Shown piece after piece: positions 8,390-64,000 of a stretch of DNA of 64,000 nucleotides (positions are counted from its first letter, which is position 1; every line of letters begins with the position of its first letter). Under the pieces are notes generated by a model that searched no databases, was not told the DNA's origin, and was given only the letters and a program-made list of their open reading frames with translations. Origin of the DNA: Scleromatobacter humisilvae (lineage in GTDB: Bacteria; Pseudomonadota; Gammaproteobacteria; Burkholderiales; Burkholderiaceae_C); assembly GCF_023231945.1 (NCBI RefSeq), contig NZ_JAJLJH010000013.1, positions 62,001 to 126,000 on the forward strand. The letters run 5' to 3'. The translations under genes were made by a program, and so were the position numbers.

Positions 8390-9418
8390 TCAAGATCGCG
8401 ACGCGCGCAATTCCGCCATGCTGCGATCGCCGAGACCCATCGGCAGCGGGAACTCGACCGTCTCCTTGACGCCGTCGATGTTGCGCACGCTGACCGCACC
8501 GAGCTGCTTGAGGCGGTCGATGACGGCCTGCACCAGCACGTCGGGCGCCGAGGCACCGGCCGTCAGGCCCACGCGGGCGCGGCCGTCGAACCAGGCCGGC
8601 TGCAGGTCCTGCGCGCCGTCGACCATGTAGGCCGGCGTGCCCAGGCGCTCGGCCAGCTCGCGCAGGCGGTTGCTGTTGGAGCTGGTCGGGCTGCCGACGA
8701 CGATCACGATGTCGACCTTGGGCGCCATGAACTTCACCGCGTCCTGGCGGTTCTGCGTGGCGTAGCAGATGTCCTGCTTCTTGGGCTCGCGCACCTGCGG
8801 GAAGCGCAGCTTGACAGCCTCGAGGATCTCGGCGGCGTCGTCCACCGACAGCGTGGTCTGCGTGACGACCGCCAGCTTCGTCGGGTCGTTCGGATGCACG
8901 TTGGCGACGTCCGCCACTTCCTCGACGAGATAGATGCCCTCGCGCAGCTGGCCCATCGTGCCCTCGACCTCGGGGTGGCCCTTGTGGCCGATCATGATGA
9001 ACTCGTAGCCCTCGCGCGCGAGCTTCGAGACCTCGACGTGCACCTTGGTCACCAGCGGGCAGGTGGCGTCGAACACCGAGAAGCCGCGCTGCGCGGCCTC
9101 CTCGCGCACGGCCTTGCTGACGCCATGGGCCGAGAACACCAGCGTGGCGCCGGGCGGCACGTCGGCCAGGTCCTCGATGAAGATGGCGCCCTTGCTCTTC
9201 AGGTCGTTGACGACGAAGGTGTTGTGCACGATCTCGTGGCGCACGTAGATCGGCCGGCCGAACTTCTCGAGCGCGCGCTCGACGATCTCGATGGCGCGGT
9301 CGACGCCCGCGCAGAAGCCGCGCGGCTGCGCGAGCAGCACCTCGTCGACGAACTTCTGCGCCTCGGCCTGCTGCTGCGCGTCGACACTCGCCATCACGTC
9401 GGTCTTGATCTCAGTCAT
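8390..9418 (-). CDS. ispH: 4-hydroxy-3-methylbut-2-enyl diphosphate reductase
   Basis: This iron-sulfur enzyme makes IPP and DMAPP in the last step of the MEP isoprenoid pathway. It has 342 aa. The three cluster cysteines sit in [23 protein letters not shown] and [12 protein letters not shown]. The HNTFVV and [14 protein letters not shown] motifs carry the substrate histidines, and [10 protein letters not shown] is the late Ser/Asn motif. About 25 N-terminal residues precede the conserved domain. slpA lies upstream, as in many proteobacteria, and a repeat mini-ORF joins the two genes. Confidence 0.96.
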
Positions 9419-9479
9419 TGGAATTGCCTTCGCCTGCGGCTGCGGTGCGGGCCCCTTCGGGCGGCCGTGCGTTGCCCAT
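9411..9479 (-). repeat. Junction repeat b: coupled mini-ORF between slpA and ispH
   Basis: An ATG overlaps the slpA stop (TGATG) and opens a 22-codon frame that ends 8 nt inside ispH. The peptide begins [13 protein letters not shown]. The DNA core cacggccgcccgaagg recurs at 37.7 kb and, inverted, at 63.36 kb. I treat it as a repeat element. Whether the peptide matters is unknown. Confidence 0.6.
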
Positions 9480-16691: not shown

Positions 16692-16785
16692 ACTCACCGG
16701 CCCGCTCGCGCCGTGCGCAGGGTGATCGACCACGGCAACTCGTCCACAGGCGACACGCTGTTCTGCCAGCCCCAGCGCGCCCGCC
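16692..16785 (-). pseudogene. Displaced copy of the alkB 3' end
   Basis: Bases 16706-16785 match 17084-17163, inside the alkB gene, with about 6 differences in 78 positions. On the minus strand the copy keeps the alkB frame (ARWGWQ..SV.PVDEL.WSITLRTAR) and ends at its own TGA at 16692. Nothing upstream in alkB is duplicated. The repeat array separates the copy from the real gene. It is either a long target duplication from insertion of the array or the tail of a second alkB allele. Confidence 0.7.
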
Positions 16786-16786
16786 T

Positions 16787-17055
16787 TTTGGGGGTCACGC
16801 CTTTTGGGGGTCAGGTCTTGCCTTTTGCCTTCCGGCTGGGGTCAGGTCTTGCCTTTTGCCTCCAAAAATCCTGCGTGCTCCGAGGCAAGACCCACACCGA
16901 AACGCTGTCGTGCTCGAACTTCGAAGGGGCCGCCTCTTTCGCGTTGAACCCGGCCGCCACCGAGGGCAGGGGCAGGCAAAAGGCAAGACCTGACCCCAAG
17001 TCGCGGGCAAAAGGCAAGACCTGACCCCAACCGCGAAAGGCAAGACCTGACCCCA
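16787..17055. repeat. Palindromic array of a 23-bp repeat (MITE/REP-like)
   Basis: The unit begins ggggtcaggtcttgcc and continues ttttgcc. Complete copies read forward at 16807-16829 and 16838-16860, with a degraded copy at 16791-16806. Complete inverted copies are at 16975-16997 and 17006-17028, with a partial one at 17036-17054. The roughly 114-bp centre has an extra half-site (ggcaagaccc) and no ORF. I recall similar repeats next to REP-associated tyrosine transposases, but none is present here. This fills most of the 486-bp gap between the M28 gene and alkB. Confidence 0.85.
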
Positions 17056-17066
17056 CCCGCGAGGCT

Positions 17067-17666
17067 CTAACGAACAACGTTGCGCGCCGTGCGCAGCGTG
17101 ATCGACCACCGCAACTCGTCCACCGGCGCCACGCTGTGCTGCCAGCCCCAGCGCGCCGGCCCGCGCAGCGCGTAGATCGAGCGCGGCGCCGCGCGCAGCT
17201 TGACGACGTCGGCCCGCTTCGGCGCGACCGGCGGGTACGGGCGGAAGCGCAGCGTGGCCGTGGAGCCGAGCGAGACGCCGAAGACGTCCTCGTGCTCCGG
17301 CACGTCGCGATGCCAGCCCAGCGGCGTGCCCGGCGCGTATTCGGCCACCAGCACGTGGCGGATCGCCTCGGGCTCGACGCCCGCCCAGCGCGCGACGCGC
17401 GCGCGCAGCGGATGCAGCTCCTCGATCAGCGGCTGCGCGGGCAGCAGCTTGTTGGCGTCGTAGTCGTAGCTGCCGCCGAAACTCGCGACGCGACGGCGCG
17501 CCGTGTACTGCTTGTAGATGGCGGCCTCGAGCGGCAGCGCGCGGATGAGCGCGATCAGCGCGGCCTCGTCATCGCGCGAGAGGAAGTCCGCCTCGTACGC
17601 CAGGCCCTCGGGCAGGTTCGCCGGAACCGGTTCCGGCAACTCGTCGAACAGGCTGCCTTGGCTCAG
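17067..17666 (-). CDS. alkB: AlkB-type 2-oxoglutarate/Fe(II) dioxygenase
   Basis: The protein is about 199 aa. It should reverse alkyl lesions in DNA or RNA by oxidation. The iron triad is the HRD of LGWHRDVPEHED plus the His in WGWQHSVAPVDELRWSITLR, whose arginines bind 2-oxoglutarate. Its length resembles ABH2/AlkB-like bacterial proteins. No ATG, GTG or TTG lies at the expected N-terminus. The best start is CTG at 17666, with GAGGG 6 nt upstream, overlapping the DUF2867 stop as CTGA. A TTG at 17639 is the alternative. The repeat array adjoins its 3' end. Confidence 0.85.
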   Translation of the reverse strand: MSQGSLFDELPEPVPANLPEGLAYEADFLSRDDEAALIALIRALPLEAAIYKQYTARRRVASFGGSYDYDANKLLPAQPLIEELHPLRARVARWAGVEPEAIRHVLVAEYAPGTPLGWHRDVPEHEDVFGVSLGSTATLRFRPYPPVAPKRADVVKLRAAPRSIYALRGPARWGWQHSVAPVDELRWSITLRTARNVVR

Positions 17667-31422: not shown

Positions 31423-32178
31423 TCAGGCGCGCAGGCGCGTGGCGGCGGCAACGACGGCTTGTGCAGCCGCCGATCCGGGCAGGCAATCGAGCAGCAGCTG
31501 GCGCTTCTTCACGGCGTCGCGCACCGACGGGTCGATCGGCACTTCGCCGACGAACTCGAGCTTGACCGGCACTTCCAGCCCCGGGCTGACGAAGCGGTCG
31601 ACCACCTGCTGCAGCTGGCCGCGGATGATGCGCCCTTCGCCCGGCTTGCTCACCTGGTTGACGATGACGCGGATGTCGCGCCGGCCCTGCGTGGTGGCCA
31701 GCACCTTGATGGTGGCGTAGGCGTCCGTCAGCGAGGTCGGCTCGGGCGTGGCCACGATCAGCACCTCGTCGGCCAGCGACACCGTGTAGAGCACGACGTC
31801 GGAGATACCCGCACCCGTATCGAGCAGGATGCGGTCGAAGCGCGGCACGACCTGCTGGACGACCGACACGAGCTGCTCGCGCACCTCGGGCGTCAGGCGC
31901 GAGTATTCGACCATGCCGGAGCCGGCCAGCAGCACCGAGAAGCCGCCGGGCGCCTCGAGGATGGCCTGGTCCAGCGTGTTCTTGCCGGTGAAGACGTCGT
32001 GCAGCGTGATCTTCGGGAACAGGTTGAGCACGACGTCGAGGTTGGCGAGGCCCAGGTCGGCGTCCAGCACCAGCACCTTCTCGCCCTGGCGCGCGAGCGC
32101 AGTGGCGAGGTTGGCCGACAGGAAGGTCTTGCCCACGCCGCCCTTGCCGCTCGTGATGGCCGTGATGCGTGCCTTCAT
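31423..32178 (-). CDS. MinD/FlhG-like P-loop ATPase
   Basis: The protein is 251 aa with the deviant Walker A GKGGVGKT at residues 11-18, A' VLVLDADLGLANLD, and the switch region RILLDTGAGI. The central TPEPTSLTDAYATIKVL matches FlhG/FleN and MotR-type ATPases that control flagellar number. A C-terminal amphipathic membrane-targeting helix is not obvious. No flagellar genes are next to it. It follows a GGDEF gene with a mini-ORF between them, suggesting one transcript linking c-di-GMP and polar placement. Confidence 0.85.
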   Translation of the reverse strand: MKARITAITSGKGGVGKTFLSANLATALARQGEKVLVLDADLGLANLDVVLNLFPKITLHDVFTGKNTLDQAILEAPGGFSVLLAGSGMVEYSRLTPEVREQLVSVVQQVVPRFDRILLDTGAGISDVVLYTVSLADEVLIVATPEPTSLTDAYATIKVLATTQGRRDIRVIVNQVSKPGEGRIIRGQLQQVVDRFVSPGLEVPVKLEFVGEVPIDPSVRDAVKKRQLLLDCLPGSAAAQAVVAAATRLRA

Positions 32179-32288
32179 GCGAGCCCCTCCCGCGCCGGGT
32201 ACGACGATCCGTCCCCCGAGGGGAGCGCGGGCCTCCTTGGGGCGGCCCGGCGCACGGCCCGCGAGAAGGATGGCACCAAGTCACTCAT
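32175..32288 (-). repeat. Junction repeat e: coupled mini-ORF between GGDEF and MinD-like genes
   Basis: A 37-codon frame starts with an ATG overlapping the GGDEF stop (ATGA) and stops at a TGA overlapping the MinD-like start (ATGA). The peptide starts MSDLVPSFSRAVRRAAPRRP and ends PSGDGSSYPAREGLA. It shares 26 of 37 residues with the mini-ORF at 40.8 kb, and the DNA cores match closely, for example gggccgccccaag and cggcgcgggaggggctc. Confidence 0.7.
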
Positions 32289-33016
32289 GAGAGGTCTTCT
32301 CCAAAGATGGACGATGCGAACAACAGGCCCTTCTCCTCGGCGGACACGACGGAGACGGGGGTGGGCTCGAGGCAGGTGCGATTGCGGCCTTCGGACTTGG
32401 CGCGATAGAGCTGGAGGTCGGCGCGCTCCATCCAGACGGCGGGCGTCGAACGCACCCATTGCGGGGCGTAGGCGCCGCCGATGCTGATCGTGCAGCCGAG
32501 CTGCTGGCCGCTGACCAGCGGGATCGCCTGGCTCTCGACGCGGGCGCGGATGCGCTCGGCCACGGTCGAGCCGAACGCCGGAGGGCAGTTGGGCAGGATG
32601 ATGGCGAACTCCTCGCCGCCGATGCGCGCCACCAGGTCCATCGGCCGCACGGTCGCGTTGAGGGCGTCGGCGACGGCCTTGATGACGAGGTCGCCGGCGA
32701 CGTGGCCGTGGTGGTCGTTGATGCGCTTGAAGTGGTCGATGTCCAGCATCAGCAGCAGCGCGGGCTCGCCGGAGCGTGCGACGCGGTCGGACTCGCGGGC
32801 GATCGCGTTCTCGAAATTGCGGCGGTTCGCCAGGCCGGTGAGACCGTCGCGGCTGGACAGGTCGCACAGCGCGTCGATCAGCGACTGCAGCCACGGCGCG
32901 CTGCCTTCGACGCCCGCGGGCACGCCCTGCCCGGACTGCGTGAGCAGCGACAGAGCCTGATCCAGACGCAGCGCGTCGGCATCAGCCGGGGGCAGGAATG
33001 AGGGCTTCGAGTTCAC
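32285..33016 (-). CDS. GGDEF diguanylate cyclase
   Basis: The protein is about 243 aa. A short N-terminal helical segment is followed by a GGDEF domain starting at DGLTGLANRRNFE. The active-site loop is GGEEF, an active variant, and the RPMD five residues before it matches the RxxD inhibitory site. LDIDHFKRINDHHGH holds the metal aspartates. It should make c-di-GMP and be product-inhibited. No sensor domain or membrane segment is seen. The start is a GTG at 33016 without a strong Shine-Dalgarno. It is divergent from cheR. Confidence 0.9.
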   Translation of the reverse strand: MNSKPSFLPPADADALRLDQALSLLTQSGQGVPAGVEGSAPWLQSLIDALCDLSSRDGLTGLANRRNFENAIARESDRVARSGEPALLLMLDIDHFKRINDHHGHVAGDLVIKAVADALNATVRPMDLVARIGGEEFAIILPNCPPAFGSTVAERIRARVESQAIPLVSGQQLGCTISIGGAYAPQWVRSTPAVWMERADLQLYRAKSEGRNRTCLEPTPVSVVSAEEKGLLFASSIFGEDLS

Positions 33017-33236
33017 GTGGATAGCAAATTGACAGGGAGGCGTCCCGCGGCGTGAGCAGGCGCTTTTCCGCCTTGAGCCGAGTCTACCGCCGGGCTCGCT
33101 CCGCCAGGAACCGCGAAAAGAGCCGCATTTCAGGCCCAACTTCAGGCGCCGGCGGGCGGCAAGACTCTTGAGACTGGCTGGCAGCGACCGATAACCCCAT
33201 ACCGATCCCTCGGTTCACGGGCAGACACACAAGACG

Positions 33237-36540: not shown

Positions 36541-37719
36541 ATGACAGAACAAGACCCCTGGATCACCTGGGAAGAATCCGGCGCGCCGCGGCGCGCGCGC
36601 TGGCGCTCCGAATCGCAGGCGATGCCCGCGACGCTGCAGCCCGCCGACGACGCGCTGCCCGCCAATGCGGCCTTCCGCCTGATCAACGAAGGCACCGGCC
36701 TGCTGTGGCGCGGCGACTTCCACAACGGCCGCCAGCTGCTGCAGGCCCTCGGCCGCCGCGTCGACAAGCCACCGCGCGCCGACGGCCGCGCGCCCGCGCC
36801 GGCGCGCACCGAGGCTGACCCGGCCGCGCGCGCGCGTGACGCGTTCGCGCGCCACCGCGAGGCGCAGGCGCGACGCGCCGCGCTGCTCGGTCGCGTGCTG
36901 CTCGAGTTCGAGCCCGACCACACGATCGCGCTGCGGCGCGCGCCCGACGTCCGCGCCGCGCTGGGCGAGGCCTGGGGCGCGCCCGACGGCACGCCGTCCA
37001 TCGCGTCGCTGCGCGAGCTGCAGGGCCTGATCGGCGCGCACGAATGGCGCAAGAAGGGCGTGGACGTGCCCGCGCTCGGCGGCCGCATCCATCCGTGGTT
37101 CGGCGTCTTCTCGCCCCTGCGCGGCGAGTACCTCGGCCTGATCGCGCAGGCGCCCCTTCCGACGCTCGCGCCAGGCGCGCAATCGCTCGCCTTCGACATC
37201 GGCACCGGCACCGGCGTGATCGCCGCGCTGCTGGCGAAGCGCGGCGTGCAGCAGGTCGTCGCCACCGACCTCGACCCGCGCGCGATCGCCTGCGCGACCG
37301 AGAACGTCGCGCGCCTGGGCTTCGCGAAGCAGGTGCGCGTGGTCGCGGCCGACATGTTCCCCGAGGGCCGCGCCGCGCTCGTCGTCTGCAACCCGCCGTG
37401 GGTGCCGACGCCGGCCAACGCGGCCATCGAGCGCGCGGTCTACGACCCGGACAGCGCGATGCTGCGCGCCTTCCTGGCCGGCCTGGCGGCGCACCTGGCG
37501 CCGGGCGGCGAAGGCTGGCTCGTGATGTCCGACCTCGCCGAGCACCTGGGCCTGCGCACCCGCGAGCAGATGCTGGCGTGGATCGCCGATGCCGGCCTGC
37601 GCGTCGTCGCGCGCCACGACACCCGGCCCACGCACCCGAAGGCGGGAGATCCGTCCGACCCGCTGTTCGCGGCGCGCAGCCGGGAAGTCACCTCGCTGTG
37701 GCGGCTGGGGGCGGCATGA
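36541..37719 (+). CDS. Class I SAM-dependent methyltransferase with NPPW motif
   Basis: The protein is 392 aa. The SAM fold begins near residue 215 with AFDIGTGTGVIAALLA and VATDLDPRAI. The VVCNPPWVP motif marks an amine- or amide-N methyltransferase such as HemK/PrmC or RsmC relatives. The N-terminal 200 residues (WRGDFHNGRQLLQALGRRVD) resemble the substrate-binding part of similar uncharacterised enzymes. The target is unknown. It is joined to the GNAT gene through a mini-ORF. Confidence 0.78.
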   Translation: MTEQDPWITWEESGAPRRARWRSESQAMPATLQPADDALPANAAFRLINEGTGLLWRGDFHNGRQLLQALGRRVDKPPRADGRAPAPARTEADPAARARDAFARHREAQARRAALLGRVLLEFEPDHTIALRRAPDVRAALGEAWGAPDGTPSIASLRELQGLIGAHEWRKKGVDVPALGGRIHPWFGVFSPLRGEYLGLIAQAPLPTLAPGAQSLAFDIGTGTGVIAALLAKRGVQQVVATDLDPRAIACATENVARLGFAKQVRVVAADMFPEGRAALVVCNPPWVPTPANAAIERAVYDPDSAMLRAFLAGLAAHLAPGGEGWLVMSDLAEHLGLRTREQMLAWIADAGLRVVARHDTRPTHPKAGDPSDPLFAARSREVTSLWRLGAA

Positions 37720-37781
37720 GCGACGCACGGCCGCCCGAAGGCGCTCGCCTCGCAGTGCGCAGCACGGAGACTTGCCGATGA
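37716..37781 (+). repeat. Junction repeat c: coupled mini-ORF between methyltransferase and GNAT genes
   Basis: The ATG overlaps the methyltransferase stop (ATGA) and the TGA overlaps the GNAT start (ATGA). The 21-residue peptide starts [18 protein letters not shown], close to the slpA-ispH mini-ORF ([10 protein letters not shown]). The DNA core is gacgcacggccgcccgaagg. Confidence 0.65.
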
Positions 37782-40760: not shown

Positions 40761-40874
40761 ATGGTCGATTCCGTGTCAACCTGTTTGCGGGCCGCGCGCC
40801 GGGCCGCCCCAAGAAGGCCCGCAGTCCCCTCGGGGGACGGAGCGCCGTACCCGGCGCGGGAGGGGCTCCAATGA
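40761..40874 (+). repeat. Junction repeat d: coupled mini-ORF between binding protein and permease genes
   Basis: The ATG is one base after the binding-protein stop. After 37 codons the TGA overlaps the permease start (ATGA). The peptide runs from MVDSVSTCLRAARRAAPRRP to PSGDGAPYPAREGLQ. It is the sister of the mini-ORF at 32.2 kb. Confidence 0.7.
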
Positions 40875-63337: not shown

Positions 63338-63423
63338 GGGAATCTCCGCGACGCCCGGCCGCCCGAAGGCGCGGAGACGCCCCCTCGGGGGGCAGCGAAC
63401 AACGTGAGCGTGGGGGCAGTCAT
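63334..63423 (-). repeat. Junction repeat a: coupled mini-ORF between rph and rdgB
   Basis: The ATG overlaps the rph stop (ATGA) and the TGA overlaps the rdgB start (ATGA). The 29-residue peptide reads [20 protein letters not shown] then GGRASRRFP. The DNA contains the same ccggccgcccgaagg core as the 9.4 and 37.7 kb elements, but on the opposite strand relative to transcription, plus gccccctcggggggc. Confidence 0.65.
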
Positions 63424-64000
63424 GACTCGAGCGCGGCCTTCTGCGCGACGATCAGCTGGCGGATGCCCGCGTCCGCGAGGTCCAGCAGCTGGTTCATCTC
63501 GACGCGCGAGAACGCCGCGCCCTCGGCGGTGCCCTGCACCTCGATGAAGTGGCCGGCGCCGCTCATGACGACGTTCATGTCGGTGTCGCAGGCCGAGTCC
63601 TCGACGTATTCGAGATCGAGCAGCGGCGTGCCCTCGACGATGCCCACCGACACCGCGGCGACGAAGCCCGTCAGCGGCGTGCGCTCGATCTTGCCGGCGA
63701 CGAGCAGCCTGGTGATCGCGTCGTGCGCGGCGACGCAGGCGCCCGTGATGGCCGCGGTGCGCGTGCCGCCGTCGGCCTGCAGCACGTCGCAATCGAGCGT
63801 GATCGTGCGTTCGCCGAGCAGCTTCATGTCGAACACGGCGCGCAGCGAGCGGCCGATGAGGCGCTGGATCTCCTGCGTGCGCCCGCTCTGCTTGCCGCGC
63901 GCGGCCTCGCGGTCGGAGCGCGTGTGCGTGGCGCGCGGCAGCATGCCGTATTCGGCGGTCACCCAGCCTTCGCCCTTGCCCTTGAGGAACGGCGGCACGC
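63420..64000 (-). CDS. rph: RNase PH, 5' end beyond the window
   Basis: This is the C-terminal 193 residues of RNase PH, which trims tRNA 3' ends by phosphorolysis. Motifs seen are [57 protein letters not shown] (active site) and [18 protein letters not shown]. The full protein is about 240 aa, so some 45 N-terminal residues lie outside. It heads the rph-rdgB-hemW cluster. Confidence 0.94.

Follow-up and report, generated by a model that had tools for sequence, protein, structure and literature searches.

A 64,000-nt stretch of DNA (hereafter the window) contains a 37-codon mini-ORF on the minus strand (32288–32175), inserted between two genes with an ATGA at each joint (GGDEF, ATGA, mini-ORF, ATGA, MinD-like), and the question is what such a doubly coupled frame is doing there. 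At the left joint, the TGA of the GGDEF ORF (32287–32285) overlaps the ATG of the mini-ORF (32288–32286), and at the right joint, the TGA of the mini-ORF (32177–32175) overlaps the ATG of the MinD-like gene (32178–32176). This arrangement was first described in a sequence-only reading, whose coordinates and overlaps are exact and whose gene names are backed by Pfam. The upstream gene (32285–33139, minus strand; its start is uncertain, the codon-usage call being 33016) matched GGDEF (9.6e-47), and the downstream gene for a MinD/ParA-like ATPase (31423–32178, minus strand) matched CbiA (1.3e-18) and ParA (2.5e-18). Above the gathering score, Rfam gave nothing at the locus and only a tRNA in the whole window. 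Based on the sequence, the ORF list, and repeat comparison, the whole interval (32175–32288) is a copy of a repeat, here termed element A. A sister copy on the plus strand (40761–40874), which forms an inverted repeat with the first (102 nt, 87% complementary), also contains a 37-codon mini-ORF, and the two peptides have 26 of 37 residues in common (counted by eye), as had been stated. The sister is flanked by genes for a periplasmic binding protein and a BPD_transp_2 permease (Pfam). Its supposed coupling at both ends is correct on the right, where ATGA connects it with the permease gene; on the left, its ATG begins one base after the TGA of the binding protein gene (TGAGATG), and no ATGA is present there.

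Here, we propose that a small non-autonomous mobile repeat targets DTGA, that the feature is one of its copies, and that its mini-ORF keeps the translation of the operon nearly undisturbed, a reading to which we assign a probability of about 0.82. The best reading of the sequences is a portable cistron that would be mobile and expression-neutral and would work like the mycobacterial MIRUs, here in Burkholderiales and with two repeat families. The landing site would be DTGA, that is, a start codon followed by A (ATGA, GTGA, or TTGA), often overlapping the stop of the previous gene, and after insertion DTGA would usually be found on both sides of the element. Ribosomes finishing the upstream gene would restart at the left DTGA, translation of the mini-ORF would melt the hairpins, and termination at the right DTGA, beside the ribosome site that the element brings along, would be followed by a restart on the downstream gene. 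Both neighbouring genes probably remain readable after insertion; the element would be nearly neutral for the operon and therefore tolerated, whatever its peptide. The second family, element B, would have the same mode of working.

Element A consists of DTGA and 22 less conserved nucleotides, a body of ~70 nt with three hairpins, GGGAGGGG, a few bases, and the next DTGA. At the locus (all features on the minus strand), the left end, delimited by eye (32263–32288; ATGA and 22 nt; consensus DTGA-GACATCCTGTGTCAACCTGTTT), is followed by hairpin 1 (32227–32262; GCGGGCC..GGCCCGC with an inner stem), hairpin 2 (32211–32225; TCCCCTCGGGGGA), and hairpin 3 (32189–32210; a stem around the loop UACC), which were assigned by covariation. 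A Shine–Dalgarno-like GGAGG (32186–32190), recognized from the sequence and site scoring, is located 7 nt upstream of the start codon of the MinD-like gene. In an alignment of 73 of the 101 units (most of the 28 left out being tandem or partial copies), pairing holds in 86.0% of 1915 cells, and two-sided changes occur in 19 of 27 pairs. Such changes fill 118 cells, compared with 38.3 in shuffles (0/500 as high) and 19–47 in slid structures. They are distributed over 7 of 8 outer pairs and 0 of 4 inner-stem pairs of hairpin 1, 4 of 6 pairs of hairpin 2, and 8 of 9 pairs of hairpin 3, in which 76.5% of the cells are paired and the three outermost pairs fail in many sequences. Tandem arrays of A mostly have a step of 90 nt (13/19 cases); a step of 87 nt occurs twice, and both lengths are multiples of three. 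In one array (L046), ATGA links three units with a step of 89 nt, and another is irregular (L068). The left and right D bases of A were A/A in 11 cases, G/A in 7, A/G in 3, T/G in 2, and G/G, T/A, and A/T in one each, with one further TGATG paired with A. Since left and right D often differ, a target duplication was not accepted as proven.

A consensus query for element A (E up to 0.001) found 17 matches in the genome of the window (6.27 Mb, 28 contigs) and 2, 39, and 22 matches in three genomes of the same genus. Within the family, A was present in at least 32 of 120 genomes at 1e-10 (at most 7 candidates scored per genome), and among 150 genomes of the order, only the genome of the window matched at 1e-9 (with scoring limited to 6 candidates per genome). 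When named genomes were scanned with a pattern, 79 stretches were obtained, with titles of Rhizobacter, Aquabacterium, Pelomonas, Roseateles, Paucibacter, Rubrivivax, Leptothrix, Ideonella, Aquincola, and Methylibium; many further ones are MAGs titled Burkholderiales, Comamonadaceae (one), beta proteobacterium, or Proteobacteria, and one is titled Vitreoscilla. The carriers are soil and water bacteria. One A query gave no match at 1e-8 among 72,556 plasmid records. Element B, a shorter repeat with a 62-nt unit found through the comparison of empty sites described below, has 18, 20, 50, and 28 matches in the four genomes of the genus and is present in 22 of 100 family genomes. Its two copies in the window are a 21-codon mini-ORF with ATGA at either end (37716–37781, plus strand; array L250) and a 22-codon mini-ORF with a left TGATG overlap (9411–9479, minus strand), whose frame, determined by eye, overruns the downstream start (9418) by a few bases. 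A third GC-rich repeat, element C, is antisense between two minus-strand genes (63344–63425, plus strand). The first part of B resembles C with E 8e-9 and A resembles C with 7e-5, and A and B have only a 13-nt stretch in common (0.035). Elements A and B can be stacked on each other at DTGA, as B followed by five A units in L051 and as A followed by B in L053. Element C ends in TCATGA. Elsewhere in the window, a cluster of direct and inverted repeats was observed at 16707–17161, with units like GGGGTCAGGTCTTGCCTTTTGCC.

The placement of the copies was analyzed in the four genomes of the genus, with neighbouring genes taken from codon-usage calls made in this analysis, not from annotation. Among 56 A arrays, 45 have both neighbours in sense, 8 have both antisense, and one each is divergent, convergent, and undetermined. 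In the case of element B, both neighbours are in sense in 77 of 83 placeable arrays of the genus, 3 of the 83 being divergent, and in 19 of 19 arrays of other genera. Merging duplicates left 43 A arrays with both neighbours in sense, and a start codon overlaps the upstream stop in 31 of them. In 20 of these 31 scored arrays, a coupled chain of one or more open mini-ORFs connects the upstream stop with the downstream start, compared with 5 of 62 one-base-shifted controls (Fisher p 1.9e-8). The 11 failures include 5 that continue in frame into the downstream gene and 6 that fail otherwise; the other 12 arrays comprise 8 without an overlapping start, 2 in which the upstream ORF reads through to the downstream start, 1 otherwise read into, and 1 without a downstream start. 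For element B, the chain is coupled in 60 of 71 scored arrays versus 16 of 142 shifted controls (p 1.3e-26), with 11 of the 71 uncoupled and 6 of the 77 co-directional arrays lacking a scorable left or right start or entered by the upstream ORF. These genus counts leave out 3 edge arrays and 1 weak array of A and 6 edge and 6 weak arrays of B. In other genera, from which 4 edge A arrays were left out, coupled chains were found in 10 of 14 A arrays (shifted controls, 3/28) and 10 of 14 B arrays (shifted controls, 6/28). Because the copies share ancestry, part of the in-frame length is inherited, and the p-values overstate independence; the evidence that counts as independent is the placement at each new site.

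ATGA stands at the upstream stop in 55 of 74 B arrays and 16 of 39 A arrays (including 3 and 8 arrays, respectively, without an overlapping start), the reference being the 8 of 50 called window genes in which A precedes TGA, and the upstream stop is the exact TGA of the left DTGA in 60 of 77 B arrays. Among right DTGAs, 39 of 41 for A and 103 of 105 for B follow a GGAGG-like site (a match in 4 or more of the 5 bases), compared with 163 of all 851 DTGAs in the window; the exact GGAGG is mostly 7 nt (A) or 7–8 nt (B) before the start. Tandem B units follow reading-frame logic: with a TGA between the units, the period is 62 or 65 (2 mod 3) in 14 of 17 cases, and without it, the period is 63 (0 mod 3) in 6 of 6. 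The sequence-only reading had named shifted frames, random stops, and equally frequent placement between divergent genes as signs of a mere by-product. Inside the genus, the copies mostly depart from that picture, with 11 of 31 A arrays and 11 of 71 B arrays uncoupled and divergent placement rare (1/56 and 3/83), and the start and stop placements lie above the one-base-shift controls in the genus and in other genera.

Evidence of mobility comes from orthologous junctions. The downstream genes of 16 A arrays were located in the four genomes (4554/4800 nt as query), and the junctions were compared by eye. At least one sister species is unfilled at 14 of the 16 (the exceptions, L006 and L044, had none among the regions fetched), and with the L061 site, 15 junctions were available. 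DTGA is present at the downstream start of at least one unfilled sister at 14 of these 15 (by eye). The tetranucleotide of the empty site is mostly ATGA, with TTGA or GTGA at three junctions; L015 has ATGC, and L012 and L022 are mixed. An overlap of this DTGA with the upstream stop is present at 7 of these 14 junctions; at the other 7, including that of the permease gene in the window, the DTGA is a start codon without stop overlap (by eye). Since, among genes called in the window, 34 of 64 have A as the fourth base and 7 of 45 co-directional pairs have a −4 overlap, 14 of 15 exceeds expectation (~0.001, calculated by hand and generous, as any one of several sister species sufficed). At the L041 junction, for example, three species have AAATGAG, and the fourth has two A units. 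The GGDEF/MinD junction is empty in G001 (CATGACA) and holds element B at the same ATGA in G002 and G003. Occupation by A in one species and by B in another was found at five junctions (the L001, L002, L003, L004, and L061 sites), both window A sites included. A sixth candidate (the L008 site in G002), where the insert looks like a worn B by eye, was rejected, as 11 of 500 shuffles score as high. The tandem number also varies, in a comparison that rests on few junctions: the L012 junction has 2 units in G000, 1 in G003 (L125), and none in G001 and G002 (L117 and L120). Together with the orientation bias and the DTGA boundaries, the empty sister sites lend good support to the earlier suggestion of a mobile element adapted to operon junctions.

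An ordinary GC-rich palindrome of the REP or terminator type, inserting anywhere and with DTGA borders that only reflect the loss of other, harmful insertions, would also explain covarying hairpins, and we regard it as unlikely but the most serious competitor. It is also supported by the convergent sites in the broader named set of A, in which 72 of 88 arrays were counted (16 dropped; the set overlaps the genus set, as two of its MAGs are G002 and G003). Here, both neighbours are in sense in 37 arrays and antisense in 10, 16 arrays are convergent, 2 are divergent, and 7 are unclear, and the 37 in-sense arrays comprise 8 exact mini-ORFs, 5 downstream fusions, 4 upstream fusions (one of which, L242, looks like a miscall), 7 ORFs ending elsewhere, and 13 without an overlapping left start. 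In this set, element A goes beyond operon junctions, which counts against the proposed reading, as do the uncoupled arrays of A and B, the targets without stop overlap, the often unequal left and right D, and the weak matches at the Y1 transposase loci described below. If survival alone were at work, convergent or divergent gaps, where insertion is harmless, should hold many copies, whereas B occupies such gaps in only 4 of 83 arrays in the genus and 0 of 19 in other genera. Moreover, a plain palindrome need not carry a start, a frame, and a ribosome site, as these elements do.

A regulatory RNA, in which the mini-ORF and hairpins form an attenuator controlling how much downstream protein is made relative to upstream protein, is somewhat less probable still. 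Pairing of the CCCCTC in hairpin 2 with the GAGGGG at the ribosome site is possible, there is almost no variation in their CCCC and GGGG parts in A, and the ribosome site and hairpins are placed where such a switch would need them. On the other hand, the invariance of this pairing offers no covariation test, and the predicted folds do not exceed shuffled sequences in stability (z of 0.50 and 0.14 for A and 1.19 for B). The empty sites in close relatives indicate that the operons manage without the element, and the neighbouring genes look unrelated (by eye).

That the repeat exists for its peptide, as a conserved small protein family between operon genes, is highly improbable, even with the frame open in most scored copies and the residues common to the two window copies. 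In 33 ungapped A units of the genus (40 of the 73 alignment rows, gapped or from other genera, being left out), the mean entropies at codon positions 1–3 are 0.47, 0.363, and 0.365, and the synonymous share is 0.279 versus 0.319 expected; the corresponding values for 68 B units are 0.754, 0.91, and 0.725, and 0.271 versus 0.325. Variability is thus not highest at the third position. Because there is neither a third-position signature nor a synonymous excess, the peptide residues are not visibly kept in A or B; the codon comparison across copies gave no sign of purifying selection, and the alternative of a real peptide family raised in the sequence-only reading is not supported. The A frame shifts halfway in some copies from other genera. 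Compensatory changes maintain the stems. What is kept in the element is translatability and the two joints, not residues. The open frame alone is weak evidence because the DNA is GC-rich, the mini-ORF frame is also open far upstream (ORF 32175–32894), and A units are mostly open in all three forward frames (a stop in 1, 1, and 3 of 73, compared with ~19% in shuffles), which makes fusions possible too. Chance openness of a GC-rich stretch, for which the open state of most frames could be cited, is practically negligible, as matched starts and stops recur in four species and other genera above the one-base-shift controls; it is this placement at many sites that goes beyond chance.

The proposed portable cistron has a counterpart in mycobacteria. 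The insertion target of MIRUs is DTGA. In the relevant part of a 2025 review (PMC12548453, citing Supply et al. 1997), MIRUs are said to appear mobile and to insert at start codons, where the ORF within the MIRU becomes coupled to the gene with a −4 spacing, likely limiting the impact on expression. As far as that part of the review goes, the likeness extends to insertion at start codons with evidence of mobility, here in the form of empty and filled orthologous sites, and to the start/stop coupling of the internal ORF, here not in every copy. A tandem copy number that varies between related genomes, here at the L012 junction, is also in common. The phylum is different, and none of the 79 A-stretch titles from the pattern scan of named genomes is a mycobacterium. 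Features observed here also include covariation in the hairpins of A, a GGAGG-like site upstream of the right start, and the use of the same junctions by at least two families. Because the way of working is the same, compared by description only, we class the repeat as a MIRU-like element outside mycobacteria and not as a MIRU. The sequence-only reading knew of no prior description of the coupling; judged from the same part of the review, this is known for MIRUs (PMC12548453), and the statement stands for Burkholderiales, where the literature matches listed, from a scope outside which most subscription journals lie, include no description of start/stop-coupled repeats.

REP/RAYT and IS200/IS605-type elements are rich in hairpins, and a tetranucleotide adjoins their insertion. 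The present elements resemble them in both respects. They differ from REP/RAYT in that no repeat-flanked Y1 transposase gene was found within 1.5 kb among 8 PF01797 loci in the four genomes of the genus, where only short weak matches to the elements occur. The best of these is a 25-nt stretch like C (E 0.001), and a RAYT/Y1 link is not supported on this basis. The Beta-proteobacterial repeat element (BRE) is described in its section of PMC3110155 as ~90 bp, GC-rich, scattered and tandem, and mostly intergenic, with copy numbers that differ among related genomes and a table of hosts in Bordetella, Comamonadaceae, and Azoarcus. Element A is likewise a GC-rich betaproteobacterial repeat of ~90 nt with a prevailing tandem step of 90, and by size, composition, and tandem habit as described there, BRE may be a relative. 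The BRE section mentions no ORF, coupling, or start-codon target, and the 79 A stretches bear names other than the BRE hosts in the table, apart from the one MAG titled Comamonadaceae (PMC3110155).

The empty sister sites show how selfish DNA can slip in between two genes of an operon with no obvious disruption of translation. The elements also provide an abundant natural set of coupled mini-ORFs for testing translational coupling: three of the four genomes have 17 to 50 matches to each element, and the fourth has 2 (A) and 20 (B). For annotators, the warning is that an ORF of 20–40 codons at an operon junction in these bacteria may represent a repeat copy and not a conserved small protein. 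Tentatively, a start codon followed by A may be a landing pad shared across Burkholderiales by a class of repeats turned portable cistrons, each with a left start, a stop-free structured body, a ribosome site, and a right stop/start. In this speculative extension, the machinery would target DTGA itself, and chains of units (up to five were seen) could become a dial for operon stoichiometry. The same design in two families here and in MIRUs would then represent a recurrent evolutionary solution to harmless insertion into operons. A DTGA-targeting enzyme, if it exists, would mean a new kind of target-specific mobility.

The enterobacterial RU-1, RU-2, and RU-3 are described in an abstract as small mobile MITE-like repeats whose open frames become parts of proteins (PMC2759123), and some A and B copies likewise run in frame into a neighbour. 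The RU repeats were described for intragenic fusion, and coupling at stop/start overlaps does not appear in that abstract (PMC2759123). In L010, L039, L056, L064, and L066, the frame of the left start passes through A into the downstream protein, which is a possible route to new protein ends. The upstream ORF takes its C-terminal end from element A in L007 and L043, which represent the same orthologous site in two species. At another orthologous junction (L004, L061, L156, and L159), all four species have a short coupled ORF of differing length, two of them without a recognizable repeat (by eye), as if old inserts decay and the coupling persists. Finally, one A copy has ~39 extra bases between hairpins 1 and 2 (L080, 524–612 of the reverse strand; by eye).
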